From Cornus controversa (taxonomy: Eukaryota > Streptophyta > Magnoliopsida > Cornales > Cornaceae), in NCBI GenBank assembly GCA_026545225.1, contig CM048849.1, positions 28,282,336 through 28,346,335 of the forward strand: DNA of 64,000 bases, given 5' to 3'. Position 1 is the stretch's first letter. Every line of letters starts with the position of its first letter. Shown here one piece after another: positions 4,938 to 55,710 of this stretch. Both the position numbers and the translations under genes were made by a program. Below the pieces are notes generated by a model. It had not been told where the DNA came from. It saw only the letters and a program-made list of their open reading frames with translations, and made no database searches.

Positions 4938-5205
4938 GTATTAATAGTAGAACAACGCCTTAATATGAAAAATAACAATAATATATACAAAAAAAAAAAA
5001 ATTTGAATGAATTCAAACCACCAATTTTAGACTTTATACTCACAAAGGGTTCCAACTTTAATCCTTTTAGATGCCCGCTATGTGGTATACCTAAAATCAA
5101 GAAATTTGAGAGATAAGAACAAGATATATACAAAAAGAATGAAAGAATTTCTAGCCTAAGAATTAAACCAGATTTAATCTTTCAATGGCGACAATTACAC
5201 CGTAG

Positions 5206-5223
5206 TCCCCGGCAACGGCGCTA
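5206..5223 (-). promoter_or_regulatory. Primer-binding site for tRNA-Asp, unit 1
   Basis: The plus strand reads TCCCCGGCAACGGCGCTA, which matches the 3' end of plant tRNA-Asp (CCCCGGCAACGGCGCCA type) at all but one position. It lies 6 nt from the LTR end at 5230, which fixes the minus-strand orientation of the element. tRNA-Asp priming is typical of Athila-like elements. Confidence 0.92.
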
Positions 5224-5229
5224 AAATTT

Positions 5230-10945: not shown

Positions 10946-11213
10946 GTATTAATAGTAGAACAACGCCTTAATATGAAAAATAACAATAATATATACAAAA
11001 AAAAAAAAATTTGAATGAATTCAAACCACCAATTTTAGACTTTATACTCACAAAGGGTTCCAACTTTAATCCTTTTAGATGCCCGCTATGTGGTATACCT
11101 AAAATCAAGAAATTTGAGAGATAAGAACAAGATATATACAAAAAGAATGAAAGAATTTCTAGCCTAAGAATTAAACCAGATTTAATCTTTCAATGGCGAC
11201 AATTACACCGTAG

Positions 11214-11231
11214 TCCCCGGCAACGGCGCTA
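11214..11231 (-). promoter_or_regulatory. Primer-binding site for tRNA-Asp, unit 2
   Basis: Same 18 bases as unit 1, 6 nt from the LTR end at 11238. Confidence 0.92.
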
Positions 11232-11237
11232 AAATTT

Positions 11238-12646: not shown

Positions 12647-13395
12647 AAGAGTTGTTCATCCGGGAAGGATTCACAAACTAGAATGGAATTATGGAGGGAT
12701 TCGACAAGAATTCTAGAAAGGTGGTCAGCTACCACATTTTTAGTTCCCTTTTTATCTCTAATCTCAAAATTGAACTCTTGTAGCAAGAGTATCCATCGGA
12801 TCAACCTAGGCTTGGTGTCCTTTTTGGCCAAAAGATGCCGGAGGGCAGCATGGTCCGAATAGACAATGACTTTTGAACCTAATAAATAAGCTCAAAACTT
12901 GTCTAATGCAAATACTACCGCAAGCAACTCCTTTTTCGTTGTGGTATAATTGATTTGAGCCTCGGAAAGGGTTTTACTTGCGTAGTAGATGACATATGAC
13001 AATTTGTCTACTCGTTGCCCTAAAACCGCACCTATGGCATAATCGGATGCATCACACATGATCTCAAATGGGAGATCCCAATTTGGAGGGATTAGAATTG
13101 GAGCGGTTGTGAGCATGGTGTGGAGTTTTTCAAAAGCATTAAGGCATGCTTCATCAAAGGTAAAGCAAGACTCTTTTTCAAGAAGGCGACACAAAGGCCG
13201 AGAGATCTTGCTAAAGTCCTTGATGAAACGGCGATAAAAGCCCGCATGCCCAAGTAATGAACGAATCTCTCTCACCGTTGATGGTGGAGGAAGTTTAGAA
13301 ATGAGTTCAACCTTGGCTCTGTCAACCTTTATTCCCCTCTTAGACACAATGTGCCCCAGGACAATACCCTCTTGAACCATAAAATGGCTCTTTTC
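12647..13395 (-). pseudogene. RNase H domain of pol, unit 3
   Basis: Same domain as in unit 1, with one visible residue change (GIKVDRAK for GIEVDRAK). The stop after LDKF near 12892 is present. The codon separating it from RT is TGA here (13396-13398) but TAA in units 1 and 2. No integrase follows. Confidence 0.88.
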
Positions 13396-15942
13396 TCAAC
13401 TAAGAATTAGGTTGGTCTCTCGACATCGTTTGAGAACACGGGATAGATTTTGGAGGCATGATTCAAATGAAGGCCCAAAAATGGAAAAATCATCCTTCAA
13501 CACCTCCAAGAATTTTTCCACCATGTCCGAGAAGATAGACATCATACACCGTTGAAAAGTAACCGGTGCATTGCACAACCCAAAGGGCATGCGTCTATAA
13601 GCAAATGTGCCAAAGGGACATGTAAAGGTGGTTTTCTCTTGGTCCCTCGGGTCTATAGCAACCTGATTATAGCCGAAATATCCATCTAAAAAGCAATAAA
13701 AACTTTTTCCGGCTAATCTCTCCAAGATTTGATCAATAAATGGGAGGGGGAAGTGATTTTTCCGAGTGGCTGAATTTAATTTCCTATAATCTATGCACAC
13801 TCTCCAGCCCGTGGTGGTGCGTTGGGGAACTAATTCACCCTTATCATTTGGTTGCACCGTAATACCTGACTTCTTCGGAACCACTTGAGTGGCACTAACC
13901 CACTTACTATCTGAGATGGGGTAAATGATTCCCGCATCTAGTAACTTCACTACCTCCTTCATTACAACGTCCTTCATATTTGGATTCAATAGACGTTGTG
14001 CCTCTCTTGAGGTCCTTGCATCCTCTTCTAAGTGTATGCGGTGCATACAAATAGAAGGGTCTATTCCCTTAAGATCTGCTACACTCCATCCTATTGCTTC
14101 CTTGTGCTCTTTTAGCACTTTTATGAGTTCCATCTCTTGATCATTGGTAAGATTGGAAGCAATAATGACTGGAAGGGTCTCATTAGCGCCCAAGAAAATA
14201 TACTTGAGCATTGCCGGTAGAGGCTTGAGCTCAAGTTGTGGTGGGGAAATTAGAGAAGGAGTTTGGGAAGTTTTGGACAAAGGAGGCAAGGGTTCTCTTG
14301 GAACTCTCCATTTAGGCACATCCATGATAGTATTGACATCGAGCATTGAGTTGACTTCAGTTATGGATTGCTCAATGTCAAAATCGTCACAGTTGAAGTG
14401 ATTTAGGCATGCCTCTAGAGGATCCTTGGAAAGAATAGAAGGAAGTGCTTCTTGAACAAGGTCTTCCACTCTATCGACACAAAAGCACTCACTTTCATCT
14501 TCGGATGTGTGGTGGGAAGCATTGAAGATGTTCAAGCAGACTTTCATATTCCTGAAAGAGATGTCCATCACTCCGGTACGGCAATTAACGCAAGCATTTG
14601 CAGTGGCCAAGAATGGACGACCTAGAATGATAGGAATATGTCGATTCAGATTTTGGACCGGTTCCGTGTCAAGGACTATGAAGTCTACTGGAAAGTAGAA
14701 TTTGCCCACTTGGATGATTACATCCTCAATTATGCCACGTGGTTGCTTCACCGAACGGTCGGCAAGTTGCAACACAACTGTGGTATGCTTGAGTTCCCCC
14801 AAACCTAGTTGTTGGTAAACTGAGAATGGAAGTAAATTGACACTAGCCCCTAGATCAAGAAGTGCCTTTTCAAAAGATTGATTTCCGATGGTGCACGAAA
14901 TGGTCGGAGCACCCGGATCTTTGAATTTAGGAGGGGCTTGGTGTTGGAAAATGGAGCTTATATGCTCAGTTAAGAGGACTTTCTTAGGAACATTATTCCT
15001 AGATTTGCGCTTTTGAGTACACAAGTCCTTCAGAAATTTAGCATAGGAGGGAATTTGTCGAATAGCATCAAGGAGAGGGAGATTGATCTTTACTTGTTTG
15101 AAGATCTCCATCATGTCTCGGATTTTCTCTCCTTGCTTCCCAAATTGAGAAGGTTCCTTCAGTCTTTGAGGAAACGGAACCGGAGGTTCAAAAGAAGTGT
15201 TGAGAATTGGAATTGATGACGACACAACTTCACTTGCCTTTCCATTTGGATTTGATGGGATGTTATGCATATTTGGATTCAAAGGAAAAACATTTGGATT
15301 TAAATGAGATTCTTTTGGATTTTTGGGTTGCTCTTGGGATTCCTTTCTCTCTTCCTCCCCTACCTTGGAATTGATGACTTTACCACTCCTTAAGGTGGTG
15401 ATTGATTGAACTTGCTCCGGAGGAGCATTACAAGATGAAGATGATGGATCCTCAATCACATGAATACTTTTAGGATTCGCCATCGCTTGACTCGGTAACT
15501 TGCCTTCCTCCCTTCTATTCAAGGCATTAGCTAGTTGCCCTATTTGAGCTTCTAACCTAGCCATAGATTGAGCATTTGCTTCAAGCTTAGAGATTGATTG
15601 AGAGTGAGTTTGCAATAAGCGGGTATTAGCCTCAAGATTGTTTATCACTCTTTCTTCAAAGCCTTGGCTTCTCGGAGGAGGTGGTGATTGTTGGTAATTG
15701 GATCTTTGATGGTAAGGTGGAGGATTTGGCCTATATTGAGGCTGTTGAGATTGAGAATTGAAAGAATTTTGCCCTTGAAAAGAGGGACTTGATTCTTGAG
15801 GTTTCCATGAAAAAGCCGGATGATTTTTGTAACCAAGATTGTACGTGTTTGAATATGGATCATTCATTTGTTTAGAGTACAAAGCATTTGCTTGCTCTTG
15901 AGCATAATCGGGAGATTGCCGGACAATAGGACAATCTCGCAC
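13396..15942 (-). pseudogene. gag C-terminus, protease and reverse transcriptase in one frame, unit 3
   Basis: This is the longest open frame of the array, 848 codons. It is uninterrupted because the codon that is TGA in units 1 and 2 is arginine (AGA) here. In order it holds the Gln/Pro-rich gag tail with a short coiled-coil-like stretch (LEANAQSMARLEAQIGQLAN), the protease (DLGAS) and RT, ending in the LKDD box region and a TGA where relatives have Trp. Small changes from units 1 and 2 include CLNIF for RLNIF, ISSIF for ISPIF and VSATQ for VSPTQ. The start Met is only the first Met of the open stretch; the real frame comes from gag upstream. Confidence 0.9.
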
Positions 15943-16953
15943 GAAATATTAAGTACTATAGCAAAACGAACATCCTTCCTGATTTTGAATAGGTTGGCTT
16001 GGAGTAGGCAGCCCATTTTTTATGATTAGGTCCATTTTTCGGGATGAGGCTTCTACTTGCATGGCAACCTCATCTACCCGTGAAATTTCATGCAGTCCTC
16101 TACAAGGTTGGGTGGCCTTCCCTTTCCTAGTGGAGGAGCGTTGAGCTGAATTGTTGCTTAGGGTTTGAAAAAGTTTTCATGCCTCATCGGGGCTTTTCAA
16201 AAGGTATCCACCTCCACACGCGGAGTCTATCATTTGTCTATGTTGCTCACTCACCCCATCGTAAAAACTTTCCACTAGCTGCCATTTTGGGATAGCATGA
16301 TGCGGACAAGATTTAAGAAGATCTTTTAACCTCTCCCACGTCTCATAAAATTGTTCTTGGTCAATTTGGGTGAATCCGGTGATTGCTCTCCAAATATCAT
16401 TCGTCTTTCCCATTAGGAAGTATTTTTTTAAGAACTCTATTTGCATCTCCGCCCAAGAATGGATTGAGTTAGGTTCTAAGGAATTGAACCAACTTCTAGC
16501 TTTATCTTTTAAGGAGAATGGAAACATACGCAACTTTAGATCATCCTCCGTAAATTGTGGCACACGAATAGTGGAACACACGGAAAGGAAATAGTCTAAG
16601 TGCCGGTCTGGATCCTCATTAGGGAGACCATGGAAGCTATTAAGAAGATTGATGGTGGAGGACTTTATTTCGAGTTGATTTGCCGCTACATCCGGAAATT
16701 GAATACATGAAGGTACTTCAAATGTAGTCGGAAGGTAAAGGTCCATAAGCAACTCTCCTGGAGAAGGTGGAGGTGGAGGTGGTTGTTCATGATTAAAAGG
16801 AGGTAGTTCGGGAGGTTGTCTCTCATTTGGATCCATGTTTTCAGTCCTAGGCAATATAGGGTCCCTAGAGGTTCCTCTACGTTGTCTAAGTGTTCGTTCA
16901 AGTTCAATATTACAAGGAAGCAAATGAAGTGACAATGACCGTCTACCTAGCAT
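15943..16953 (-). pseudogene. gag, unit 3
   Basis: The 258-codon capsid-type frame at 16177-16953 has two changes from unit 1 (PSPGE for PSQGE, QLEIK for QFEIK) and the same TGA after SPDEA. The zinc-knuckle stop near 15946 is also present. Confidence 0.9.
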
Positions 16954-17220
16954 GTATTAATAGTAGAACAACGCCTTAATATGAAAAATAACAATAATAT
17001 ATACAAAAAAAAAAAATTTGAATGAATTCAAACCACCAATTTTAGACTTTATACTCACAAAGGGTTCCAACTTTAATCCTTTTAGATGCCCGCTATGTGG
17101 TATACCTAAAATCAAGAAATTTGAGAGATAAGAACAAGATATATACAAAAAGAATGAAAGAATTTCTAGCCTAAGAATTAAACCAGATTTAATCTTTCAA
17201 TGGCGACAATTACACCGTAG

Positions 17221-37585: not shown

Positions 37586-37726
37586 TCGTGGTTTCCATTT
37601 GTTCCACCACTTTTCTGACCCACAAAATCTTTATGCATCTTGCTATTTTAACTTAACTTGTTCTTCCAGCCTCTCAATAATTGAAAATATATATCAAAAA
37701 AATTTCCCAATCAAAGGAAAAATATA

Positions 37727-37995
37727 CACTACAAGATTTTTGGGTTTTAATGACAGGGCTTTTACGACGGGCACGCATAGCCTATCGTAAAAAGTACATT
37801 TTACGACGGGCCCGTGTAGCCCGTCATAGAAAGGTTATTTTTTAAGGCGGTCATCCATAGCCTGTCATAGAAAATACTTTCCACGACGGGCTATGTGTGC
37901 CCGCCTTAGAAAATAACCTTTCTATGACGGGCCATGCCCGCGTTGGAAAGTTTAATATCTATCACACGCTTGGCCCGTGATAGAAAGCTCTAATT
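37727..37995 (+). repeat. CACTA left terminus and subterminal repeats
   Basis: After the terminal CACTACAAGA come alternating units such as tttacgacgggc and cctatcgtaaaa, partly in opposite orientations, up to about 37990. Such subterminal repeats are where the CACTA accessory protein binds in known systems. Confidence 0.85.
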
Positions 37996-38039
37996 TTTTC
38001 TTCACTTTGGGCGGTGCAATTTTTGATCTCCCGCGCATA

Positions 38040-38480
38040 ACCCAAATCCTCATCATGTCTAACATTAACCCTCTGTAGATGAAAGCTCAAACTAACCTAT
38101 GATCAGCACCGTTCTCTAATTTCTGACTCCCGCACATAACTGAAAACCCCAAAATCTCTAACCCTCTCTAGATCAAAGCTCAATCAAACCCTAACCTCTA
38201 ATCAACGTCGTTCTTCAGCTTAAACAAGCTTGATTGAGGCAAAGTCTGTAATAAAGAACTCCTCTATGATCAAAGCTTATCCTAAAAGGTACTCCTTTAA
38301 AATCCCCTCTGATTTGGTACTCTTTGATTTGGTACTCCTTTTACGTCTTGGGTACATTGATTGGTAATTTAAATATAGATTTTTTGTGTTTCTGATTTGG
38401 AACTCTTTGATTTGGTACTCTTTTTAGGTCTTTGGTACATAGATTGGTAATTTAAATATAGATTTTCTGTGTTTCTCTTT
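38040..38480. repeat. Tandem duplications behind the CACTA left end
   Basis: A unit of about 82 bp, tttggtactctttgatttgg ... attggtaatttaaatatag, occurs at about 38310 and about 38392. A weaker pair of about 100 bp (cccgc(g/a)cataac ... ctctagat(g/c)aaagctca) precedes it. 38480-40450 shows no recognisable gene. Confidence 0.75.
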
Positions 38481-40458
38481 TTTGGTCTGTAATAAAAATT
38501 AAACTCACTACATGGATTTGATGGGCCTTTTTTGTTGTCATTGAAAAGTATTTATTCATTGGTTACAAATTGAAGCTTTTAGTTCAATAAATTCCCTTCC
38601 ATGTTATAATTTAGATTTGATACAGTTCAGACTTCTTTATGCTCCCATAGTAGTTGTTTTTATGCATTCATGTCTTCGGATGAATCTTGTTCATTGATGA
38701 TGTAGTTTTAGTTAGTGAAACTAGGTTAGCAGTATGTTCTAGGAGAGATCCACTGATAGATGGTTTGAAATCTTCAACAACAGAAAAAATAAATAAATAA
38801 ATAAAGAATAAGCAAGAAAACAACACTACAATTGTTGAGTATGATACTTGTCACTATGCACCTAAGTTTATCCATGTAGTATTTTGCTTTTAACTGCATC
38901 AAGACATTACGTTTAATTATCAAATAAAATAGTTATGGTTGCTTGGCTGGACTGGCAAAATGAAATTTCCAGTCTCAGTTTAGAGAACATGCATTTGTTA
39001 AATATATACGAGGACTATTTGCATCATAAAGAATTTCCATTTATTCTTGGATGAGTATAAACAAACCCTATTTGTACAAAGAAGTGATCTGGAATGGTTT
39101 AATATAATAGTAGAATAAATACAAATTCTAAGAATGATCTGCAGATAGATGCTTAAAATCTTTGGAAACTAAAAAGAAATTGAAAAGGAACAAGCAGGAA
39201 ATAGAGGTTAGAACTATTGAGTTGATTGTGTTCATTAGTATTAGTAATGTATAATTATCATCTTGAAGTTCTTCTGTTCTAACTACTTACTGCAAGGAGG
39301 AAAAAAAAAGTTCTTCTAACTTCATCAGGCCACTACATGTGTTTTTCTTTTTAATAATGCAGGTAAGCAAAATATAACCTTTATATTGGGGTTGAATTTA
39401 GGGTGTTAGTAGACTTTGGGGCCACCACTTTCCCTTGGATAAAAACAATGATAAAACCTGCATCAAAATAAATTCATAAAAGATGACCAAAAAATTTATT
39501 TAAGAGCCCTGCTTTGAAACTAGATAGCTGAAGAGAACGTAATAACTCTTCATTTGGTAAAGCAATTAATAATAATGCCTCAACTTCCATCAACGAATTG
39601 ACCTTTGTTAGGACTTAATGTCGTAGGTTGGCAAATTTCGTAACAAAAGCCAAAGTTTGTACTTTTTGTTTTATTTCGAGTCATTTAGATAGAGTTGTTT
39701 ATATCTTAATTGAAATGACTACTCAAAATTTCAATCAAAATTTGTAGCCTTCAGTGCATTCAACTTGTTATACCTTTGGTTCTCATTCTGCAATTATTTT
39801 TATTATTTTTTCAATTGAGTTCCTGAATTAATCCGTGGCTTGTTTGCAGTTCTGCATTGGTACCATAAAATTAGATTCATTGTTTTCCACGTTCATCTAG
39901 AGGATATAAAGAGATTATTGGGTTAAGGTTAGATATTGTCTTCATTTAGTTGTTGTGTATCTCTTTATCTCTCTCTATACACAAAGATCTAATAGTTCTA
40001 TATTTTTGTTTTGTTTTGTTATTTTTAAAACATGTTTGCTTCTTCTTTTTGATATCTAAAATACTCTGACGAAAAAAAAAATTCCCTTTTCCCCCCAAAT
40101 AAGTTGGGGCTTCTGAATATAATTTCCATTTTATGAATCTAGTTCCATTTTCTTGAATATGATTCCCATCTTCTTTCTCAATATCTGATGTCTTAGTTTA
40201 TGGCTGATTTTATTATGGTGTGTTGTGAGCAAATGATTTTGTGATTGATAAGTCTAGGTTATTGATGGGGATGGGGTAATATAGCAGCCCGGGAATTGAT
40301 ATGATGATGGGGTTTATAAGATGGTTATTCTATTGAAAATCTTTTGTGATCAAAATTCTGGACCAATCAGCCATACTTTTCCCAAGACCAAAGTTTGGTA
40401 TTTTAAAATGGGTGATTCTCTTCTAACGGCCCTGTCAATGGACAAATTTTGTCTGTCC

Positions 40459-40521
<63 letters not shown>

Positions 40522-40537
40522 CGTGTGTGTGTGTGTA
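40459..40537. repeat. (TA)n(TG)n microsatellite
   Basis: A TA run of about 18 bp is followed by a TG run of about 60 bp with GC interruptions. A second pure TA run lies at 41102-41135. ORFs over these are artefacts. Confidence 0.95.
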
Positions 40538-41098
40538 TCTCATCATAGTTAATCATTTTTACCTAATTATAATTTGATAGTTGCAGTAAATAGTTTCCAT
40601 GTTGTTCTTTTTGTTGTTAAATTTTACTTTTTAGAAGATAAATGATCTTTTTACATATAAAGTTTGGTATTGTGCTAATATAATTCTATTATTTTGGTAA
40701 TGGGGAACTTTTGATATTCTTGTTGCACTTTAGAAGCTTTGTCAATTGGTAAAATAATCAATCTGGTTGACTTCTGCAGGTTGTTTGTCAGCAACCACCC
40801 TGGTGAACTTGGGTGTTAGTTGGCTAGGAAAGGGCAGGTAATACTTTTTAACCAATGAATTTTTTTCCCTTCATCTGTATGTAAGCATGCTAGCATCATA
40901 TGGAACTCTATACTGATGAGTTCTCAGTTTCCTTTCATGTGCAATGTTAAGAGGAGATGCCTTATAGAAATGTTGAGAAGTGTAAATGAAAAGTACTTAG
41001 CCGCCATGGAGATGCTGTGTTTTCATAAAAAAAAGTGGTCTATGGTGGAGGATATAATATATATGCTTAAAAGAAAATTCAAATCTTCAAAAGAATAA

Positions 41099-41142
<44 letters not shown>

Positions 41143-42099
41143 TGCTTAATTAGGTTGATGTCTTTTCATGGAATTGTCATTCAATGCTATGTGTTCAATG
41201 AAAGTTTAATTTGGTAGATCCTGTGCATTAGCAAGCCCATTATGTTGAGAATTTTGTCACTTTCGGATTGTGATTTTCCAATTTCCTCTTCTTGATTGGA
41301 TCAAATTCTCTACTCTAGTCATAGGCTTCCAACATGTTTGGGACGAAAAAAAGGTTAATGGTTTACATATACTTAGGCTGCCAAGTACAAGTAATTGTGG
41401 CACTTAAATGATTTCTTGATAACATATTTTGTGCTAGATTTGTATCTGCAATTGTTCAACCAGTTCTTGTTGATCTGGTACTTTATTCTAATAAAGTTAA
41501 TTTTTCCCTGTAAAAAGTTAAATGAAAGGAAAGGAAAGAAAATTCATATCCTAGTCATTGCTACTTTAGTTCTTAATTACATAATAGTGCCTCTGGAATG
41601 AATGCTTGGAGCTGCATATATATATATATATATTCCTAAATTGATATTTTGTGCTTTTATTGGAAGAAGATTCAATTAAGCCGCTAGATTGTGCTAAATT
41701 ACTAATGCTTATTCCAACTTTCTTGTGGCATGTGGAAAGATTTAGAATTGGGTGATCAATTTGCCTGCAATGGTGTTGGTTGTTGTTGGGTATATTTCTT
41801 AAGCATAAAGTCAAATTAAGTAACCTCAATATCCATCCCCTAGAAGTGTGATCTTTTATCATACTTGTTGAATAATTACAACTATTTAGGGCTCTTAAAT
41901 TAGTTTTACTTCACCATAAATTGGTAAAACTTACCTTACCTTGCTCTTGCAAATATTGATTTCTTGAGCATATAATTCTATTTTACTATTTTCAGTTTCT
42001 GATATCATCCATATCACTTCAAATCTTCCTCTCTGATTTCATCCATATGATTCTATTATACACAATCATTCTGTGTTTGAAAAATATGGTTGAGACATG

Positions 42100-43000
42100 A
42101 TTTTGTTTGATATATGTATTATGTGTGTGCTGTGTCAACCAAGAAAGTGAAAAAAGAAAAGAAAAAGAAAGAGAGAGATTGGGCATTCGATTAGGAGGAG
42201 AGTGAATCAGTAGAAGAAGATAGAGAAGAGAGGTAAAAGAGAGAAAAGGGGGAAGAGAAAAAGAAGGGAAAAATAATATACATATATCTATTCATATATA
42301 TATTGATGATGAATGAGAAAAGGAAAAAGGTGGGGAATAAAATAATAGAATTGGTGGAGAAAATAGAGAGTGGTCAGTTAAAGAATGAGAAGATTAGCAG
42401 AGAGAGAATAAAAGAAAAATAAAGAGAGAAAAGAAAGAAATAAGAGAAGATGAGAATGAGTGGGTAGAGAATAAGAAAAGAAAAAGAAATGGTGGGAGTG
42501 TGAAGGAAGAGACGAAGAATATGGGTTTGGTCAGCTAACACATTGAAGAGATTAAATGCAAATGAGGTTGCTGACATTGATACCATTGCTATGCATTTTT
42601 ATATGCAAAAGCCATTTCAATGATTTAATAGCATTTGGCTATAAAAGAATTCAAACAGAGGCACAAGAGGATTCATAGAGACATCTAGATGCATATTGAG
42701 AGATAGAGGGAGCTACTGGAATTCAGTAGCTCCGGCACAAAAATGTATTCAGAAGGAGAGAAGCTAAGGAGGGAAGGGAGGTTTCAACCACTCCTATAGG
42801 AAGCTAACTTCACTCCTAGTGGCTTGATGTAACCCTAAGCTATGTAATTTTGTTTTGATTGTATTTATTTTGGGGAAAATTCTTTATGTATAATAATTGT
42901 ATAATATGTGATAAATGCCGAATATTGCACATTCAAGCCTCTTAAGTTGCAAATGTTAATTCCTGAATTATGTGCATAGTATAGTTTTTACATTTATTTT
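42100..43000 (+). repeat. Athila-type LTR remnants
   Basis: ttgatgtaaccctaagctatg (about 42826) matches the block at about 24855 in the solo LTR, and ggctataaaag (about 42639) looks like an LTR TATA box. At 42909 an LTR start follows (TGATAAATGCCGAATATTGC, like 24097). The remnants are therefore the end of one LTR fragment followed by the start of another, inside the CACTA. The AG-rich part at 42120-42520 is low-complexity. Confidence 0.5.
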
Positions 43001-45700
43001 TGTGTTTCTGTTGTTTTTAAGAGTTTCCCCATAAATTTAGTCAATTCGTGTTATTTAGCATTTCAATAATGCCTTCCAGCATTGCTAACACCAAAGAAAG
43101 ATGGGTCATGGAGGATGTGCGTAGAGAGTCGTGCCATTAACACAATTACTAGAACCATAGGGAAAAAAGGACCAAATAATAATATTACACGAGGGAACGA
43201 ATTCAAACACTTGCACAACATTAAATGAATGCTAGAACCATCGAGAAAAACATGGGTTGGTGCAAGTGTATCTATGTGGTACGTTGAGAGATAGAGAGAG
43301 ACGGAATCCTTAAATAAATAGACTAACACGAAGTTCACTTAACAAACTATTAACAAGTTTTATGTATATTTTGCATTGAATCAATTATGCAAGGATGTTG
43401 ATGTAACCATCCCTTAAGTTCTCAAAATCAGGAACAATCCACGCCTAAAAGGGAAATTTCTATTGGTGACTCACCTATACACTGCACTCCACTTGTAATC
43501 AATCCCTTAGGAAAGGTGAGTGGTAAAGAGGAGTTGGAGGGTTTTGAGGAGAAGGGGCAGCAAGTTCCAGAACAGGTTATGAGCAAAATATGTGAGTTTT
43601 CTTTTGTTTTGGGACAAAAGAGTGATTTATACTTAGTAGGAAGGAAAAAGTATTTGGTTCCATTTAAATGTCGAGAATGCATAACATTTGGGTTCTATGA
43701 GCCACTCTAGAGTCAAGACTTTTAAGGAGTGAGAATTAGGATCTACTAGGGTTAACAAGTAAGAGTACGAATCCTTGGTGTACTGGTCGTCACCTTAATG
43801 TCATCCATTGTCTAAAGGAAATATTATGGTGTAGCTGTGAAGGGAGAGTTAGTCACACAAGCTTACAAAGCTCCATACATATATTGTATTTGGCAGTAGA
43901 CACTCAACTTTCTAAAGCAAACTACCATCACTGTTGATAAAAAGTATTTATACATACCTAATATGAATGTTGAATACAATTATGATGGGCACACCAATAA
44001 ATATACATGTATGCAAAAAGATTCTCATGTCAAATAAATGGCGGAATAACACAACTCAAGTAAAACATGCAAAGAAAACTATGATTCAGGTATTCTCACC
44101 CTCAAAGTGGAAGAAAGCTTTAAGGCAATTCACATAACTCAAACCATGGCCATGTACAGTAAAATGTCACATGGCTTCTTTTGTATAAAACTGGTTGGGT
44201 TTTGAGAAAAAATTGTGCATTGGGCTTCTTTCTTTAGGGCATTTCAGTACCCTGTGCTATCATAGGTGACTGTGCACTTAAAGATGTCATCTCATCCTCC
44301 ATAAACTTCAATGTATGTTGTGTAATATTTTGCTTGTTGTGCTTGCAGATTGGATTGCTTAGTGCATACATCATTAAAAAGTTGTACATTGGCAGGTATA
44401 TGAGTGCTAGTTATTCTCATTTTTGTCATTCTATTATATTAACAAAAGTTTTCTTAGTTGCAGCTTTGAGAGTTATATTATTGGTCTCCAGATTAGTGTA
44501 ATTAAATTATTTGAAAGATTCTTTGAAAATGATACAATCATGCACAGAAGACTTAAACGACAAATTATAATATTGGAAAGGTTTGGTGGTAGAATTGTCA
44601 CCAAAAGTATAAAAAAAAACACCAATCATATCATGAAATGTGTCTGTTCATTGGAAATTTAAATTTCTTATATTATAATAATAACTTGGCTATTTTGTTC
44701 AGGGTAAGTGGTTTTTTTTACTGGATTAATTGAATCCCCTATTTTTACTTTTTTATTAGAAAAACTGGTGGTAATTCGCCTAGAAGAACATAACAAAAGA
44801 ACCCACTGTCATGAAGGTTGTCTGCATCTATTATGAATGGTCCATGGGAGCTGCACTTAGTAGGAGCTTAGAACATGCTAGTGTAATTTTGTTTGTAACC
44901 TTTATGGGATTAAAAAAAAATTAATTTTTTTTCTTTTTATGTATGTTATTATAATCACAGAGTGATTTTTCTTGGGGGGCAGCATAGCCCTATGAAATTG
45001 GGTCTATTAGCATGGAATGCCCTATCAAGATTGTGTTAAATTCCTGTCTTCATTCAAAGCATGAAATTGAAGTGCGTGCTCTAAAGTTGCTAACACAATA
45101 GGAGGTAATATTATAGGTTAATTAAGTATTTATCAATAGATAGAAATATCTTTCAGCATGGAGCTATTACTATTAGCAGTCCAGGTCAATTGTCATATCT
45201 CTTAAGGTTGGGGGGTTAGCGGCGGCCTATACAGTACCAGGAGGTTTAGATCAAGTAACAGTTTTCCAATTCTTGTTAACCAACATTGATACTGATGGTT
45301 TATATATATATAGAACTAGGCTTGTGTCAAAATGAAAACCTGATCATTGATACTCGCTCTTCTTTTCTCTTCCTTGTACTGTTGAAGCCATGAAGGAAAG
45401 CTTGAGCTGGTCGAAGTGGTGGTGGATTCATGGTTATGAGTAGTGGTTGGTATGGTTAGAGCTTCTCTCCTAAAATTAGCCGAGCAAGCAAGTCAGCTGC
45501 TGCTCAACTCCAGTTTTAAGAAGTGACCAACTAGATCCATCACTGGAAAGAGTAAAAGAAAAAAGATTAATGTAAAACCAAAATTCAAAAATTAGGAATA
45601 AAATTTCTTAACCTAGCTACATATCTACTTTTAGTAATACACATAAAAAAATTAATAATTTTAGAGACAAACATTCAAAAAGAAAATGGAGATATAAGAA
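43001..45700. other. CACTA interior without recognised genes
   Basis: Several short open stretches occur (for example 43516-43710 and 44423-44662). None matches a family I recognise. A stretch at 44349-44397 is bounded by AG and GT as an exon would be, but the product is unknown. Confidence 0.4.
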
Positions 45701-45721
45701 ATCCAAATATGAAACTTATAG

Positions 45722-46408
45722 ATAATTAAGTTCATAAAAATACCTTCCAAGGTTGAGACTTAGTCCCAAGCTGCCAACAGGAACTGTAAGAGCATGAAGT
45801 TGCCAAAGAGACTCTAGAGAAGGTTGGCCTATTTTACACCTCATGTAAGTCTGAAGAATTGCAATCCCCACTGTCCACAACCTTCCACTCTCTCCAATTG
45901 CACTCAACATTCTACTAAGTTCCATAATCATGAGTTCCACAGGACAGTAGTAGTTTTTCCTTTGCTCACCACAATGACAGTGTTTTTCCTTTTAGTGCTC
46001 ATGAATGTGTTTAAAACACTATTTACATCATCACTCAAAACTTGATTATCGGTACTTGGTTTGCTTAGTTATGATCTAAACTGAGTCATTGGTGGAAAAT
46101 GAGAGAAATTGGTGCCAAAACTTGGTGATTTGGTGCTAATTTTCTTGGACTGGCTATTCACTGGACTTTCAGAACAGATCTCCAAAGAGACAGCTTGTTC
46201 TACATTGGTTTTCACTTGAGGACTAGAAAAACCAGCCTCTCTCATGACTCTACATCCACTTGGTTCATCTAAGATTGAGATTATGAGCTGCTCTATCTCT
46301 ACTTTCAAAGCCAAAATGGGCTGCTGCTGGTTTTCAATGGAGCCACGCCGTTGGTGAGCTTGCGCACGCTTGAAGGCAGCAACCAAGGCATTGGACAGAG
46401 AGAAGGGA
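45722..46408 (-). pseudogene. SMXL / D53-like (double Clp-N) gene fragment
   Basis: The minus-strand reading gives three blocks, in the order they have in SMAX1-LIKE proteins: [20 protein letters not shown] with [20 protein letters not shown] and [20 protein letters not shown] (Clp-N repeat region); then VLSDDVNSVLNTFMSTKRKN with TVIVV; then CPVELMIMELSRMLSAIGES with ILQTYMRCKIGQPSLESLWQ. The strongest likeness is to the SMXL4/SMXL5 type, whose members act in phloem development and are relatives of strigolactone-signalling repressors. Stops and deletions between the blocks, including loss of the segment after TVIVV, mark it as a decayed captured piece. Confidence 0.75.
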
Positions 46409-48313
46409 TTGACAAGAACAGTGCAAATTTATAATATATTTTCACATGAAATATTCCTATTTTCCTTGCCCCCAAAAAAAATTCTTATTCAATCTTGGAA
46501 CAAATATACTAGCTTTAGAATCCAAAAATACACAAAGCAGCAAGCAATTACACTAATAACGATAACCAAACAGAAAAATTACCCTAAATGAAGGTTGGTA
46601 GTCAGCTGGAGCTCCTCCCTAGCTTCTCACCAAACTCACCAGGGAGTCCTCTAGGACCTCCACAGTATCCAATATCCTTCATGATCACCAAACCTTGGCC
46701 TATCTCCTTCAAATCTAGGTGGACCACTGCCAATTTCACACATCAAAAATAAATAAATAAATCTCAATTAATAGAAAATTAAAACGAGCAGTAGGATAAC
46801 CACTAAAAAAAAATGACAAACCACTAAAATGAAATAAACAAATGACATATCAATTAAGGGAACCAGATTCAATTAATGCCCAGTAAACTAAACAACAAAT
46901 GTCAACAAAAAGTATAACTGGTAGAATATAAAAGAAGACCAAGTTCGTATCGCATTTGGCACTCAGATTTGAAGGGCTCGGACGGATGCTAGAGATAAAT
47001 GTATACATAGGAAATTAGGAATCATTGCTCATGCAAAAGAAATATTATTTATGCTCCTTACTTTGACATTTTCAGCAACACAAAGAGGAAGAAAAACAAG
47101 TATACCTGTGTGAGTTCCATTACAGCATTGCATTGACAGATATTATCAGAAGCGACATGGAACTCTATTATTAGTTTTTTGTTATTGTCGTCTAGCTGAG
47201 CATCTATGCAACAGTTTGTGTTCTGTTCTCAAGTATTTTTTTTGGCTTGCTGGGAAGAAAAAAAAAAAAGGAGAGTGGGGATGGAATAAGCCTCATTTTC
47301 ATGTCCTTTTTTGTATACTTTCAGCTTCTTTCACCAGTTGTTTTGTCTGATATCTATAATTTGTGTTTAAATAATGCAGTTAGTGGTCAGTTTGCTTAAA
47401 ATTCTTTGTACAAATGTTGCATGGCAAAGGCGTAAACTTGGAAAAATTTTACAAGATTGGCGTGTCATCTATGTGCAGGTTTGCCCTATTGTATCCAACT
47501 TCATGAAAATTGTTTAATTAATATTTTGTTTCTTCAAATTTCATGACCTCATTATTGATTTGTCTCCTTTTGAGATCCACCTATGATGTTTTATCATGTT
47601 ATCAACTTATTGCCCCGCAATTCATGCTTCTCCTGCTCTTTTGGCATCATTTACCTTATTATTTAGAGTATAAATAAATCAATCAGAGTCTGACTGGTTA
47701 TATAATTCATTTCTTGGCAAGAAAATATTAAAATCTAGTCTTATCAGGGATTTAAATTGTTTTTAGATATCCTTAACCAATTAAGAAAGTTGAAATGTTT
47801 TGGTGCTGTGCGACAAAGCATTTAACGATAAGAATTTTTTAATGCACATCTCTTGCCCTCATTTTCCCCTTATTTTAGGCTTATCTGTTAGATAGGAGTT
47901 CAAATTTATTTTTCTGGGTTGTTACTGTTTTTTGAAATTCATCATGCATGTTCTTCCTCAGTTTTTCCTCTCATTAGATTCAATTTGGGTATTTGTTCTC
48001 AAAAAGGTCACTTGTGGAGAAGTTCTTTGACCTCTGTAATGCTTCTTACAGAACCTATCAAGATCTAGGAATGCATTAATTTCACAGCTTCTTGACACCA
48101 TATCTTCCAATCATGGACTGAGCTCCAACATGTAATATCCTACACCAATCCACTCTCTATAGTAGTCAGCCACTCAGCCACCAATTCTCCCCTAGGAAAA
48201 GCTACTTCTAGAGACTCATCCCTGCCCTAAATTTCATGAGTTTTAATCAAATATCTGTAAATGACTCAAAAAATAGTGCATCAACAAATGTAAATATATG
48301 TAGTTATATTTTT

Positions 48314-49810
48314 GGGTAAATTACCCGAACCTCCCCTGAGGTTTTGCCTTATTACCCGCAACTGAAACTTTTTGAGAAATCTCTCTGACACAGAGCTTAC
48401 CCCGTTAGTACCTTTAACGGCAGCTGTGAAAGTACCATTTTCCCCTTAATTATAAATATACAAAAGTACTTACTTCACTGCGGATGTAATAAAAAATACA
48501 AAATTACCTTTTTACACTTATAACTCTAGAAAGTCCAGATTAACCCCTCTATACATATACAAACCAATCTCTCTCTCTCGATCTCTCTCTCTCCCACACA
48601 CTCACATATATTTATTTATGCACAAACACATACTAACTTCCGTCGCTCTTCTCATTATCTACAATGGGTTTGAGATTAGGTTATGGTTCATCTCATTTCT
48701 TCCATTCACGGCCAAACAATTTACATATACATGGTGCACATGAAGCACAAACAGAAACCCTTATACTGCACCACCCACCGTGACTCGTACAGAGCACAAC
48801 TCCACCTCCGACTCCATCCTCTACAGCTAAGCCACTGCCTACCATGGCTTAACTGCCTTCCTTGGTTCTGACCAAGCCATGTCCATCCCCACTGGCCTTT
48901 TGAGCTCTCTCACGACCGCTGCCGCCTAACGCCCCCACCCCCACCACCAATGCTCTCTTTCCTCTTCACCATCGTGACACCACTGCTGCCGCCGCCACCC
49001 CAAAGTCTCTCTTCTCTCTCTCCTCTCTCTCTCACACACACACACACATATATGTATACTCTGTAAAACATACATACATACATACATATATATATAATGT
49101 GTATTAATGTATTAGATCTACAAGGAATTGTATTGTATATATATAATGTGTATTGTATTACATCTACAAGTAATTGTATTGTATATATATAATGTGTATT
49201 GTATTAGATCTATAAGGAATTGTATTGTATTTATATAATGTGTATTGTAGTGTATAATCTGAGGGATTTGCAGAGGGGTGATGGTGGTGCTCGAATGGTG
49301 GAGGCAGGTTGAGAGAGAGAGAAATAGGGTGGTGTTAATTTGATTGGACAATGAGGGGCAGTTGTGTTGGGAAAGGAATGAGAGGGAGAGGGAAGGGAGA
49401 GAAAGAGGTGGCGGTGGCGGTGGTGGTGGGGGCTATTCAAGGTTTGCGCATATATATACGTATGTGTGTGTTGCATATTCCCTAATTATATGTTTAATAC
49501 TAATTATAACATAATCCCTGATTGAAGAAATTTATATTTAATTTTGTAATTTATGAACTAATTTTGCAAATTTTACGCTTTAGATAGGTTCATCAAAGTT
49601 CAGGGTCATTTAAGTCTTTTTACTTTAGTTAAGGATAGTTTTGGCATTTTCTAAATATCTCACTGACAGACTTAACAGTCAACTAACACCAGGCGTAGTT
49701 GGAGTGATTATGCCAAACTTCAAGGGAGGTTAACTTGACCACACTTTTTCAAATAGTTTCAGCCACAGATAATAAGGCAAAACCTCAAGGGAGGTCCAGG
49801 TAATTTATCC
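48314..49810. mobile_element. Non-autonomous Mutator-like element (1.5 kb)
   Basis: The ends are inverted over about 63 bp: GGGTAAATTACCCGAACCTC on the left and, as reverse complement, GGATAAATTACCTGGACCTC on the right. Both continue with TGAGGTTTTGCCTTATTA. Flanking 9-mers are TATATTTTT and TATATTTTG (8 of 9 the same), fitting the 9-bp target duplication of Mutator elements. The interior has CT runs, a GC-rich stretch at 48740-49010 and a minisatellite, with no transposase. Confidence 0.8.
49091..49255. repeat. Minisatellite, about 46-bp unit, three copies
   Basis: atctacaaggaattgtattg with tatatataatgtgtattgtatta recurs at steps of about 46 bp inside the Mutator-like element. Confidence 0.85.
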
Positions 49811-50084
49811 TATATTTTGTATTCTCCAAGAAATATAATTCAACAAAGCACTTCATAGTATTTTTTGTTTTTCTTTGCAAATACCACTTGCTCACGTGCG
49901 TTATGTAATTACAAGATGGTAGTTTATACCAACACGTCAACCCAAATTTTTGCATGCTCAACATCTCTTGAACAAAAGAGCTTTTGCAATTCTATTTTGA
50001 AAAACTATGAAGACACCACATCCCTATCCCACCCCCAGCACCCTCTCCCCACCCGGTAGGCAAGGTACACACACCCAATCCACA

Positions 50085-50290
50085 CACAAACAAACCCACT
50101 ATTGCCTCAAAAGCGATGAGAACCCTCAACCCCCTATGTTAGAGGAGGATGGTATATCACTTAAGTTTAAGGCCTACAACACTCGATCCACACACACACA
50201 AACCCACTATTGTCCCCAAATGGGCTTGAACCCTCAACCTCCCATGTTGGAGGAGGAGGAGGAGGAGATATCACTTAAGTTAAAGCTCAG
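50085..50290. repeat. Tandem duplication, about 110-bp unit
   Basis: acccactattg(c/t)c(t/c)c, gaaccctcaaccncccatgtt, and ggaggatggtatatcacttaag-like blocks occur twice. The second copy adds GAG triplets. It lies in the long intron of the Naa35-like fragment. Confidence 0.8.
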
Positions 50291-52019
50291 TAAAGGCCTC
50301 ACATATCACTATATGGAAATATATAATATTTTTCTATTTTACAACGAGATTCATAATTAGAATACATTGACTATCAGCTTCAAAGTGAAAAGGAAAAACG
50401 TCAATCCATCTTATATATCCAGCAACAAACTATGGTTAAAACAAATTTCCTCGAAAAAATATGTTCTTACCCCATAGGGTGAGTGTCTTTTATCACAAGG
50501 AGATACGGTGATTATAGAATTTATGCATGTATGGATATGTATAGTGTTTACAGACAATTATATGAAGAAACATTCTGTAAATGTTATTAGGAAATCGCAT
50601 TAGAGATTATCAGTTATGGACCATTGAACGATGTAGTTCCTAGAAAATTATTAAATACTAATTATAGTAGAATACAGCTCTCTTCTTTCTTTGTATGTTT
50701 TTTGGGGAAGGGGATTGACAAACATGGATTGGTTATTGTTAGCACCTATTTAATGTCAAATTTTCTTGGTTTTTAGTCATCTAGTACTCTAATCATTATA
50801 ACATCAATATTGTAATTTTATGTTCATATAAACTTAGTGATGAACTTTTCCTCTTGGTAAAGAAACAACCTATCCTTGAATTATCAAAAAAAGAAAAGAA
50901 AAAGAAAAGAAACAACCTATCCTTGGGACTGATTTAAGCTTTGGTTGTTGTAACTGGTGTTTAACAGCTAGAACTGGCTTTTAGGAAGGAGTTTAGAGAA
51001 ATCTCAAGCACTTTGAATGATGAGGTATGTTTTCCTTCCCTCATTATATCACTATTGCATTTTACCTATATCACAGAAGACCTATCAACCTATCCTTTGC
51101 ATGAAAAGATCACTGTTACGGTGAAATTAACTTTTTCAATCTTTTTAATAACTTCCTGTGATATTCGTGTGACTCCCAAATTATGTTCTCAATTGGAACT
51201 TTAGTTTAATGCCAAAGAGGCGGGATACTAGTGGTGCTTATTATTTTATTTCAATTTCTTATATGCGCTTATATTTCCCCTAATTTGGACTGTGGGGACT
51301 TGAATCCAGTGATCTGCTTTCTCAAATATCGTTGGCATAGCTTTTCATTAGGAATGTTTCTTCAGTCACCTTACTCATTTTACCATTAAGTCTTATAGTT
51401 TGTCGTCTCAAATATCCTTAGAAACCTTTTGATCAGTAGTGCTCCTTAATTTAGAAGTTTAGGTTTCAAGTAATTGATTATATATGCTACATGGCAGGAT
51501 TGGAAGTTAATAGAGAAAATTACATATTTTTGGCTTTTTCTTTGCTTCTTCCTATTTTTCCTTCTTTCGGCAAAAAAAAGAAAAGAAAAAAAGAAGAAAG
51601 AAGAAAAAAGAAAAATAAAAGAATTTGTTTATTTATTTGCTGATAGAATATTGACAACTTTATGTTGTTCACAGCATACAAATAACTGAACCAATTAGAC
51701 AGTAAAAGCTAAAATTTATAAAGGGAATATTTGCCAATTAAACCACTTGCGCTTTTTTACTGCTGAGTGACTCTCCCATTGAGTTTGTCGATTTTCAGAA
51801 AGGGTTTCCTTTTTCTATTTCTTGTCAGAATTTTTTCTCCATGTTCATCAAGCCACGACCGATATATTTTTATCGAGCATCGTACCATTGATATCCTAAT
51901 TTTCAGTTGAATATTTCTACGCCCTACATTTTGTGATTTGTTTCACGATGAACCTTGTTTAGGTTTATTGGTCACTTCTACTAGTAGTTGCCAATTGTTG
52001 AATAAATTAGCAAGGAGAC

Positions 52020-52615
52020 ATGGATAAAGGCTGGATGCACCTTCATAACAGGTTATTATAACCTAAATAACCTTACCCATAACAATTTAGACATTATACC
52101 TGTCATTCTTGTCATAATGAAAATTTTGACTTTCCAATTGTAGAGCTTCAACGGAGTATTTAAATGGAGCACGTAGATTTTCCAATTGGGCCCAACGTAA
52201 TGCAGGGAATCCAGCTAAGATTATATGCCCCTGTAAACATTGTTTAAACTCACAATATCAACATTTTGATACGGTGTACGAGCACTTAGTGATCAATGGA
52301 ATGGATTCTGCTTATACTATATGGGCCTTTCATGGAGAGAATCGGATTACATATGTAGAAAATGAAGGCACTGAAGATGGTGTGGAAATGCCTGAAACGT
52401 ATGAGATGTTTAGAGATGTGTATTTTGATGGTGAAGAAAATGCTACAACAGCTCCCACTTATGGAAGTAGAGAGTTTGAGTTCAGAGAGGCGTTGGAAAA
52501 GGCTGAAACTCCTCTATATCCTAATTGCACGAAGTATACAATTATGTCAGCAACAGTTGCTTTATATAAGCACAAAGGTTTCAGGCTCAACATTAGAGAC
52601 CCAGCCATACCTTGA
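52020..52615 (+). pseudogene. TNP2-like CACTA transposase, N-terminal transposase-associated domain only
   Basis: Exon 1 (52020-52051) starts MDKGWMHLHN and ends at AG/GTTATT. Exon 2 (from 52144, after TTGTAG) continues in frame with RASTEYLNGARRFSNWAQ, then the metal-binding block ICPCKHCLN, YEHLVINGMDSAYTIWAFHG and later EALEKAETPLYPNCTKYTIM with SATVALYKHKG. This is the transposase-associated domain found at the start of plant CACTA transposases. At 167 residues it stops (TGA at 52613-52615) just where the linker to the catalytic part should begin. The catalytic DDE part was not found in the element. Confidence 0.85.
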
Positions 52616-52682
52616 AAAAGAGATCAAGTTAGAAGTTAGGCTAAAACTACTAAATGCCAAAGGCAAAGAATCAACTCACAAA

Positions 52683-53246
52683 CCTTAAGCGAAAAATGAC
52701 GGGACTTTCTATAGCTGCATACACATCTCCTGCACTAATGCCACTGTCATTCAAAGTCCATCTTCTGCAACTAGCTAACTTCTCCAACTGTACATAGTAT
52801 GGGAAAAGCACAGGGTTCCTTGAGCTACACTTGAACTGCCCCATTTGTTATTGAGGTGCTTAAGCATAGAGGATATCTTTTTCCGAGCACTTAAAGTGAG
52901 TTCCAAAAATGGATTATGACCATCCTATAAGAAAGGAAAAATATTATTTTTGTAAACTGATAATTACAGACCTAATCATTTAAGAATTCTGTTTTGCTAA
53001 ATAATTTCAGTTCATAATCTCACTTCTCCAATCCTAAATGAGTGCATTCATCTATTGGGAAAAGCTGCAGCTTAATCTTTAGAGAAGGATGTAGTTGTCC
53101 AGCCTTAAGCTCTAGGGCAGGTACAATTTTAGTTGTTTCCCCAATAGAAGTAACTCTATTTGGAAGCAGCTTACCACCCAACACTTGAGCAGCACTAAAA
53201 GGTAATTTACCTGGATCTTCTCCAGTCAAAACATATCCACAACCCC
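52683..53246 (-). pseudogene. TSL-kinase interacting protein 1-like fragment, two exons
   Basis: Minus strand. Exon A (53246-53024, after TTTCTAG) encodes GCGYVLTGEDPGKLPFSAAQ and, later, LHPSLKIKLQLFPIDECTHL with GLE, ending at a GTGAGA donor. After a 99-bp intron ending TTATAG, exon B (52924-52683) encodes DGHNPFLELTLSARKKISSM, LKHLNNKWGSSS and, after one frameshift, RRWTLNDSGISAGDVYAAIE with SPVIFRLR. The series of blocks resembles the C-terminal region of plant TKI1-like nuclear proteins. The splice phases fit exactly, so this is a genomic copy. It converges with the TNP2-like gene 68 bp away. The frameshift and missing 5' exons make it a fragment. Confidence 0.6.
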
Positions 53247-53319
53247 CTAGAAATAGAAGGTTCTCAACAATGAGTAGAACAAACAAGTTAATTATAAAAA
53301 AACAGATGGAAATTCTTAG

Positions 53320-53730
53320 GGGTGCACAAAAAATGTTAGAACCGGACCAAACCAAATCGTACGGTTTGGTACGATTCCGGTTTGAGGTCGAGAAGGACTG
53401 AACCAAACCATTAATTAGTGATAATATAAATATATGTACATCATATAATATACATGTTATTGGTAGAGAATATAACTTGCCATAATCTTATGTGTATATA
53501 TATCATCTTATGTGTATATATATTTTAGATTTGGTTTTTCATTTGATTAATATGTATATCTATATATGCATATATATATAAGAAAGTCCAAAACCATTGA
53601 ACCAATCATCTACGGTTCGGTTCCACTGATTCTAACAATTCGGTTTGATTCTAATATATCTTGAACTGCTGGGACCGGTTTGGTTCTGTTTTACATCAGA
53701 ACCAGACCGAACCAAACCCAAGACGCATCC
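53320..53730. repeat. MITE-like repeat rich in accgaacc / ggttcggtt
   Basis: It begins taggggtgcacaaaaaatgtt, a start common in plant hAT-type MITEs. It contains inverted accgaaccaaacc/ggtttggttc blocks around an AT-rich centre. A matching right terminus was not found. The open frame at 53020-53406 on the minus strand spans part of it only by chance. Confidence 0.45.
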
Positions 53731-53758
53731 AAAAAGTTGCACTGACACGCTAGATCAA

Positions 53759-53797
<39 letters not shown>

Positions 53798-53994
53798 TAT
53801 ACATATAGGAATGAGATAAAGTTTCTAAGGATAATGGGAAGTTAGACTCTATCTTTAACAAAAAGTATGACATGGATATGTTTATGTACCTATATATTAT
53901 ATATGATTTGAGGCACCAAAATAAATACGTATGGTATTCTAATCATAAATCTATTCAAAAACTATGAATGGATGGAAATCCATAAAGTTGTTAC

Positions 53995-54158
53995 CGTGTG
54001 TGACAAGCATCAAGTTTTTTGAAGGAAATTTATCTGCAAGGGCCTTAATAATTTGCTCATATCTGGTCCTTGTACCAACGACTGTCTCTTCCCATTTTGG
54101 CAACTTGAGTTCCTCGAGCAAACAATCTATGTCAGTACATAGAATAGTTTTTGCAGAC
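53995..54158 (-). pseudogene. Histidine-phosphatase / phosphoglycerate-mutase-like exon fragment
   Basis: The minus-strand reading gives AKTILCTDIDCLLEELKLPK, WEETVVGTRTRYEQIIKALA and DKFPSKNLMLVTH, ending at a GTAACA donor. The ALADKFPxxNLxLVTH pattern is that of plant phosphoglycerate-mutase-family (RHG) proteins, in which the final His is the second catalytic histidine. No other exon could be found, so function cannot be claimed. Confidence 0.5.
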
Positions 54159-54704
54159 TTATAAAGGAAAGTGAAAAGGAATATATATCAAGTATACCTC
54201 TTTATATATATATTCATTGTTTCATTTCATTATATATTGATATTTTTGTCCTTTCTCTGTTGTACTTGCTCCATTGACCCTCTCTCTTTAAATCCCAGGA
54301 TAATGAATCAGAGCAGCAGTAGCAGTAGCCTTCTCTCCTGTTGTACTTGCTCCATTTTGCTTCGATTGCCTCTCAACTACGTCTTCAAGTTCAGTGTTTT
54401 GCTTAAGTTCATTTGTAGCTAGAATATTCGTCTTTTAAATGTTCACTTTATATTTGTTAATGGCTGTAATTTTTAAGCATGCTGAATGTGCTAGCTTTGA
54501 ATCTGCAAATTAGATATGCACATACTTTTGGGTTGGGATGAAAGTTATTCAAACTGTGTTTTTGGCTCGACTTTCATTTGAATGTTTTTTAGCTTCCGAT
54601 ACAAATTGATGTTGGTATTGTATGTATGGTATCACAGGTTTTTAGATTGGGTTTCACAGGTTTTTGGAATGAGAGGTATTAGAAAAAGGAATTTTCAAAA
54701 AAAA

Positions 54705-55380
54705 AAAAAAAAAATTTTATAAGGCGGACGATGGCTGCCCTTAATAGCGTTTTTTAAGGCGGGCAAAGCCCACCCTTAATAATATCATGAGTGTAGCTTC
54801 TAAGGTGGACCAGAAACGCCGTTAATATCTAGATTCTAAGGCGGGCTAACACTGCCCTCAAAAAAATTTGGCTTAGCTTTTAAGGCGGCTAGACTCGGCC
54901 CTGACTATTAGATTTGAAGGCATGCATTGCACGTCGTAAATAAAGATTCTAAGGCAATAACTGACCGTCGTAAATAATGACATTTCTATGACATGCATGG
55001 TCCGCCTTGAATAATTTTGCTTCTACGGCGGTCTCTGAGCGCCGTAAATAATAACAGTTCTATGACATTTAGAGGCCGCCTTGAATAATTAAACTTCTAG
55101 GGCGGGATCGGAGCGCCGTAAATAATGACAGTTCGATGACATGTATGGGCCGCCTTTAATAATTCAATTTCTAAGACACTAAATAACCGCCTTGAAAAAT
55201 TATTTTAAAGGCGTGTGTAGAATTATTAAAGGCAGTTCTCGAATGCCTTTAAAAAGTTTCCGCATGCCTTTAAAAAACTTCGTAATTATAACACCTTAAT
55301 AGAGGGCGGGCGGGTGGCCGCCTTAAAAAGTCATTGATGGCAGTTTTGGCCCGTCGTAAAAGACTAATTTTCTTGTAGTG
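54705..55380 (-). repeat. CACTA right subterminal repeats and terminus
   Basis: About fifteen or more short units of the types ttctaaggcggg, gccgtaaataat and ccgccttgaataatt, in both orientations, run to the terminal tcttgtagtg at 55380. A poly-A run of 17 precedes them at about 54700. Confidence 0.88.
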
Positions 55381-55710
55381 ATATTTTACATTTTAATTAA
55401 AAGATTACACATTTAACATATTCAATAAAAAAAATCATCACCCATTAACCAATGATATATCATCTAAGTTGTGATATTTAAATCCTCAAACACGGCCCTT
55501 CTTCATGGTGGGCTTTTTTTGGTCCAACATTCTGTTAAACCTGCAGTGATACCATGTTAACCACCATCTACTTTAAAATCTTAAGTTATTAGAAATAGTG
55601 CCATTTAAATATTTAAATTCTCAACAATAACAATATCTTTCTTTTTTTCTTACCTATATTTTGTAATAAAATAGATTTAACAAAATAACCCACTTCATTT
55701 TATGTGGTTT

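Follow-up and report, generated by a model that had tools for sequence, protein, structure and literature searches.

The window analysed here, a 64-kb stretch of Cornus controversa DNA (C5:28282336-28346335 in a searched genome of 771.7 Mb and 61 contigs), holds a CACTA transposon of 17,654 bp at 37727-55380 that carries pieces of unrelated plant genes, as an initial annotation made from the sequence had claimed. In the ancestry of this element, an interior stretch of 413-414 bp gave way to as much as 4,392 bp from the NAA35 locus. Very probably, the element belongs to a recently active CACTA family that copied about five unlinked host loci by gap-repair capture, and the window copy is a member that suffered a deletion and was mobilised in trans. 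We posit that a break or gap would open inside an element, that repair synthesis would jump to an unlinked host gene as template and then back to the element, and that the transposase of long members would move deleted copies such as the window element in trans; the NAA35-bearing version now stands in 14 copies. With rather less assurance, we favour a broader reading in which a transposase-coding lineage gains unlinked genes through the repair of its own breaks, in layers (SMXL, then an unnamed locus, X, within the SMXL copy, then NAA35 over the edge of X), and keeps its capacity to spread.

Six accepted pieces make up about 7.7 of the 17.65 kb and match their donors at 92.6-98.7% identity. 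The donor loci are unlinked (SMXL on C8, NAA35 on C7, a probable TKI1-like one on C1, a histidine-phosphatase-like gene and X on C9); because they are still present elsewhere, the pieces were copied, not moved. The initial annotation had listed four fragments. Searched against the plant's own genome, each of the four found a separate matching locus, but the set proved larger, with X at about 46408-47147 as a fifth piece and a second SMXL piece. The orientation had been described correctly: SMXL, TKI1-like and phosphoglycerate-mutase-like lie on the minus strand, opposite to the transposase gene TNP2, and NAA35 on the plus strand. The pieces and the adjoining TNP2 features are as follows.

45301..46407, minus strand: SMXL piece covering part of exon 1, an inferred intron and part of exon 2; two C8 donor stretches joined at ACAAT
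46408..47147, no strand: piece of the unnamed locus X, from the C9:55.65 Mb match; left edge inferred
47148..51447, plus strand: NAA35 piece, matched at about 98% by C7:43.58 Mb; near 50707 it lacks about 100 bp of the donor stretch
52130..52577, plus strand: start of the TNP2 gene (Transposase-associated domain), from Pfam
52573..52577, no strand: CAAAG microhomology at the 9.4-kb deletion, five shared bases at the joint
52620..53760, minus strand: TKI1-like piece, 96% to C1:109.625 Mb; its start is probably the deletion junction
53769..53971, minus strand: SMXL piece taken from upstream of the donor's first exon, 92.6% to C8
53972..54206, minus strand: phosphoglycerate-mutase-like (histidine phosphatase) piece, 97.9% to C9:52.6957 Mb

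The NAA35 capture can be followed from both sides. NAA35 DNA occurs in exactly 14 copies of the element plus C7:43.586 Mb (15 of 15 candidates scored), a locus that also has an NAA35 match beyond the captured part (8.5e-9); in the window, the NAA35 TPR is recognised at about 47365-47484 on the plus strand (E=2.6e-11). The 4,392 bp of the donor are matched at 98.1% in C1:26.70 Mb and at 98.4% in C8:30.83 Mb. L048 (C4:29.70 Mb) and L049 (C2:95.20 Mb) are elements that have SMXL and X; aligned to the NAA35 locus they give no match, and in the interval that the NAA35 piece occupies in the window they hold 413 and 414 bp. Altogether, six sister elements retain 413-414 bp at the position where the 14 copies hold NAA35 DNA of up to 4.39 kb. 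When the pre-capture sequence of L049 is used as query, five places including L049 itself, among the best 40 of 57 candidates, match through 1-1301, and L048 makes a sixth, with a match over 257-1301 that crosses the joint. In the 14 NAA35-bearing copies the match ends at base 443; it picks up again at 858 in the 6 that retain the right side. The replaced stretch includes 57 bp of SMXL at 96.5% identity, and the pre-capture form is therefore ancestral and not the result of a later loss of NAA35. Read base by base against L048 and L049, the joints share one base with the donor on the left (A) and three on the right (CTT), and they would fit internal gap repair from an unlinked template. Within the NAA35 part, the distance is 0.0044 between transposable element (TE) copies and 0.0087 between donor and TE copies, with 10 fixed differences in 1,908 sites. 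The X and 57-bp SMXL matches of the L049 query overlap by 7 bases where they meet. On the reverse complement of L049, at 630-720, the 57-bp SMXL stretch by X is seen by eye to be flanked by a 13-bp direct repeat, GACAGATATTATC, which resembles the pattern of a patched templated insertion.

The SMXL and NAA35 names given by the initial annotation hold by domain; the phosphoglycerate-mutase-like piece has a weak domain match, and TSL-kinase interacting protein 1 (TKI1) is unconfirmed as a name. In the window, SMXL shows an NBD_SMAX1 domain (E=5e-16, Pfam), and the donor at C8:35.843-35.850 Mb shows the same domain at 1.1e-38 and a PDB match to SUPPRESSOR OF MAX2 1 at 8.5e-82. This donor matches 45301-45975 at 96.0%, across an intron deduced from reading frames, and 45971-46407 at 97.5%; the internal SMXL deletion sits at ACAAT and the junction with the phosphoglycerate-mutase-like piece at ATGGA. 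The left SMXL stretch has 20 near-complete places among the best 40 of 53 candidates. Larger, differently deleted SMXL stretches occur at C4:25.90 Mb, beside CACTA gene sequence, and at C5:7.86 Mb, where no CACTA sequence was noticed in the 3 kb read, which suggests that SMXL was captured as a larger piece and eroded later. The X piece (46420-47145) is 98% identical to C9:55654582-55655310, and 14 kb from there lies a relative at 82%. Most of the piece is also contained in the pre-capture element L049, which matched no Pfam family in six frames.

The piece at 52620-53760, called TKI1-like here, matched no Pfam family. C1:109624031-109626488 is 96-98% identical to it in the two stretches searched, and this match stops at window 53760, with different sequence beyond; the C1 locus is a probable donor only, because it was read on one side. 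The TKI1-like frame is found at 32 places, the probable donor included (34 of 34 scored), and has no stop at 25 of them. Two other candidates were set aside: an 81-bp match at C7:16.62 Mb (L050) is another CACTA derivative, and C8:52797504 is merely a 39% relative of the frame. Even in older copies the TKI1-like exon (L029:1249-1660 and relatives) is 98-100% identical, against 93-96% for the right-hand region of those copies; this pattern could stem from gene conversion, from constraint or from chance.

The phosphoglycerate-mutase-like piece is weak in Pfam (histidine phosphatase, E=0.024), and a PDB search with it gave no match; a search of the genome for the His_Phos_1 family returned 16 matches, none at the donor. 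That donor, found by protein search and then read at sequence level, is a gene-like locus at C9:52695744-52695978 with 97.9% DNA identity to 53972-54206, and its frames appear by eye to stay open past both edges of the piece. The protein search gave a second candidate at C5:20.05 Mb. The piece has 78 match rows, which fall at about 75 places including the donor (79 of 79 scored). Nine of its copies lie 31-123 kb apart at C6:25.94-26.33 Mb, at least six of them with a 203-bp SMXL piece about 1 kb away; either related elements have clustered here or a segment has been amplified.

Comparison with sister copies also accounts for the truncated TNP2-type gene that the initial annotation had noticed. 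The C3:27.66 Mb (24.3 kb) and C2:36.93 Mb (23.7 kb) copies align at 99% to window 49089 and across 51780-52577, and lack window 49090-51779. After 52577 they contain about 9.4 kb absent from the window, and then the right-hand part resumes; TNP2 is truncated in the window because these 9.4 kb were lost at the CAAAG repeat, a deletion not present in the ten other copies read. The window retains the 5' part (52130-52612, Transposase-associated domain, E=3.5e-18), and the part deleted there carries, in the C3:27.66 Mb copy, the remaining TNP2 with Transposase_21 (1.9e-88), DUF4218 and DUF4216, together with a Transposase_23 match (1.2e-5). TNP2 is present in 9 of the 10 copies read; the three TNP2 parts tested are free of stops in 6 of these 9, and the C3:27.66, C2:36.93 and C2:36.17 Mb copies, the latter two probably from a single insertion, have no stop in any of the six parts. 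A further short derivative, at C2:18.11 Mb, measures 11.6 kb and has no TNP2. The window copy, as judged from sequence, is a non-autonomous product of deletion in a transposase-coding family: long members, of 23.7-27.3 kb, apparently code for the enzyme themselves.

A search for related copies with shared ends, which the initial annotation had suggested, found 14, 13 of them with exact right ends and matching flanks. The first 301 bp of the element are found with 99-100% identity in 14 places; single places follow at 94, 92 and 87%, and 23 more at 79-82%. These counts come from the best 40 of 393 candidates and are thus lower bounds. Ten of the 13 other 99% copies were read over 20 kb each, two of these to the right end; right ends were read for the remainder, and for three copies just both ends. 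The same NAA35 piece is common to all 14 copies, and 11 are long (23.7-27.3 kb). Exact right ends with matching 3-bp flanks in 13 of 14, the window included, mark 12 distinct insertion sites; the C5:24.79 Mb copy has no exact right end, and two C2 copies with a common flank are probably one duplicated segment. The C3:27.66 Mb copy has a second right-end motif farther out, unused in the analysis. Mean distances between copies are 0.20-0.44% over four stretches, and this low divergence points to a young, recently active family. Plant substitution rates are about 7e-9 to 1.3e-8 per site and year, which puts the age of the family, very roughly, at 0.1-0.3 million years.

Four other accounts need to be weighed. 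The four gene pieces lie within 10 kb, as they would in an old gene cluster around which CACTA ends had fallen by chance, the outcome that the initial annotation had named as refuting its claim; the matching loci are spread over C8, C7, C1 and C9 and the same mosaic recurs at 12 distinct sites with matching 3-bp flanks, and the unlinked donor positions rule this out, leaving a vanishingly small probability. Hybridisation of two neighbouring CACTA elements that catch the DNA between them, the route described for Pack-CACTA in Arabidopsis (PMC13317346), could have added to the older pieces, whose pre-capture forms were not found. We consider it unlikely: the NAA35 piece took the place of DNA inside a single element, the alignments of the 10-kb donor region of NAA35 contain no CACTA sequence, and the pieces of three loci abut at 53760-53972. 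The NAA35 DNA could also have arrived by a separate insertion, for example in another transposon, beside an independent deletion, and joints with just one and three shared bases would suit such a history. It is improbable, given that no duplication or known element ends were noticed by eye at the joints and that all 14 copies have one and the same breakpoint, with a single point of resumption in the 6 retaining the right side. Retention of the pieces for function, whether to yield small RNAs against the donors or to serve as coding exons, might be read from the three pieces antisense to TNP2 and from the TKI1-like frame, which is open at 25 of 32 places; deletions, different from copy to copy, have eroded the pieces, and low divergence alone explains the open frames. 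Such a role is distinctly improbable, and passenger DNA is the likeliest one.

Several observations weigh against gap-repair capture by a family that codes for its own transposase. Joints sharing one and three bases are near chance, and a separate deletion plus insertion would give the same end state. The trees of the NAA35 part and of one SMXL part place the donor beside a single TE copy (support 0.77 and 0.87), and the rooting is weak because the donor groups with one TE copy in both. Coding capacity was judged from open frames, with putative TNP2 introns; 3 of the 9 TNP2 copies carry one or two stops, and the C10:8.29 Mb copy, stop-free in TNP2, has a stop in a TNP1 part. Among the donors, locus X on C9 is known from its match, and the TKI1-like C1 locus was read on one side, for about 760 bp past the right edge. 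The two oldest-looking pieces come from the best 40 of 484 candidates.

The remaining features of the element agree with the CACTA ends, ATA duplications and subterminal repeats of the initial annotation.

37724..37726, no strand: left ATA target-site duplication, from flank reading
37727..37736, plus strand: left terminal inverted repeat CACTACAAGA, exact match
37760..38000, no strand: left subterminal repeats, from GGCGG/GACGG motif counts
39871..40445, no strand: possible older capture, 90% match to C4:68.09 Mb (best 40 of 484 candidates)
42099..44149, no strand: nested repeat with a gypsy-like reverse transcriptase fragment (named by eye), from comparison of copies
44439..45200, no strand: possible older capture, matched at 86% and at 76% by C6:60.90 Mb (best 40 of 484 candidates)
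54720..55360, no strand: right subterminal repeats, from GGCGG/GACGG motif counts
55371..55380, minus strand: right terminal inverted repeat, exact match of CACTACAAGA
55381..55383, no strand: right ATA target-site duplication, from flank reading

The exact terminal sequence has only these two matches in the 64-kb window. GGCGG/GACGG occurs 7 times in the first 274 bp of the element and 15 times in the last 660 bp, counts reached in none of 624 and none of 612 other window stretches of the same sizes (overlapping, step 100). CACTA terminal inverted repeats, the 3-bp duplication and subterminal repeats place the element in the CACTA (En/Spm) superfamily, and the TNP2 (Transposase_21) and TNP1-type genes of full-length members are found in the sister at C3:27.66 Mb. 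The nested repeat is about 90% identical to many other genomic places and is missing in 2 of the 10 other element copies read. The two possible older captures, each matching one distal place, may be earlier acquisitions. Elsewhere in the window, 1-17000 is a tandem array derived from a long terminal repeat (LTR) retrotransposon, a 6,008-bp unit in 2.8 head-to-tail copies that are 99-100% identical; its gag-pol frames lie on the minus strand and look Ty3/gypsy-like by eye.

Capture of several genes by a plant CACTA element was already known, as the initial annotation had stated. Tgm-Express1 of soybean likewise bears intronic and exonic pieces of five unrelated host genes (PMC1947982); it is 5.7 kb long with chimeric splicing reported, whereas the family described here has long members of 24-27 kb with a transposase gene, and the genome in which it lives also contains its donors and pre-capture sisters. 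In Chenopodium, CACTA-like elements combine, as this family does, a coding region with captured fragments upstream of the TNP2-associated domain (PMC8978399), but the fragments described there are two of Neprosin in a single element and one of AP2, 80 bp long, in three elements, against about five loci, kilobase-size pieces and a before-and-after series here. With Pack-TYPE and Pack-CACTA elements (PMC8903248, PMC13317346) the window copy shares CACTA ends, a 3-bp duplication, captured host genomic DNA between the ends with its donor elsewhere, and a non-autonomous state, its TNP2 being cut at 52577. Pack-TYPE elements are defined as non-autonomous, however, and here apparently transposase-coding sisters also bear pieces. 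The CACTA route described in a review requires two neighbouring elements, and that review leaves open a further route for unlinked genes (PMC13317346); the NAA35 case, an interior replacement, does not fit the neighbour route. Gap filling is described for animal Pack-TIRs, with copied internal fillers, short microhomology and parental copies kept (PMC8277862); most of the single-copy cases there lie near their parents, whereas here a plant CACTA family has unlinked donors and spread after capture. The new point is the before-and-after series; multi-gene CACTA capture and coding CACTA elements with fragments are both on record. In the literature searched, which covered few subscription journals, we found no report of this gene set, which the initial annotation had proposed as a new case, and no CACTA capture for which the donor locus stands alongside element forms from before and after the event.

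A single genome here contains the donor locus as well as the element in its pre-capture and post-capture states, at about 98-100% identity; the joints can therefore be read directly and the event dated to just before the burst of copies. Captured genes travel in members apparently able to move themselves and not in defective passengers alone. If our reading is correct, this family would preserve, as a natural record, a route of gene capture that may still have awaited discovery according to a 2026 review.

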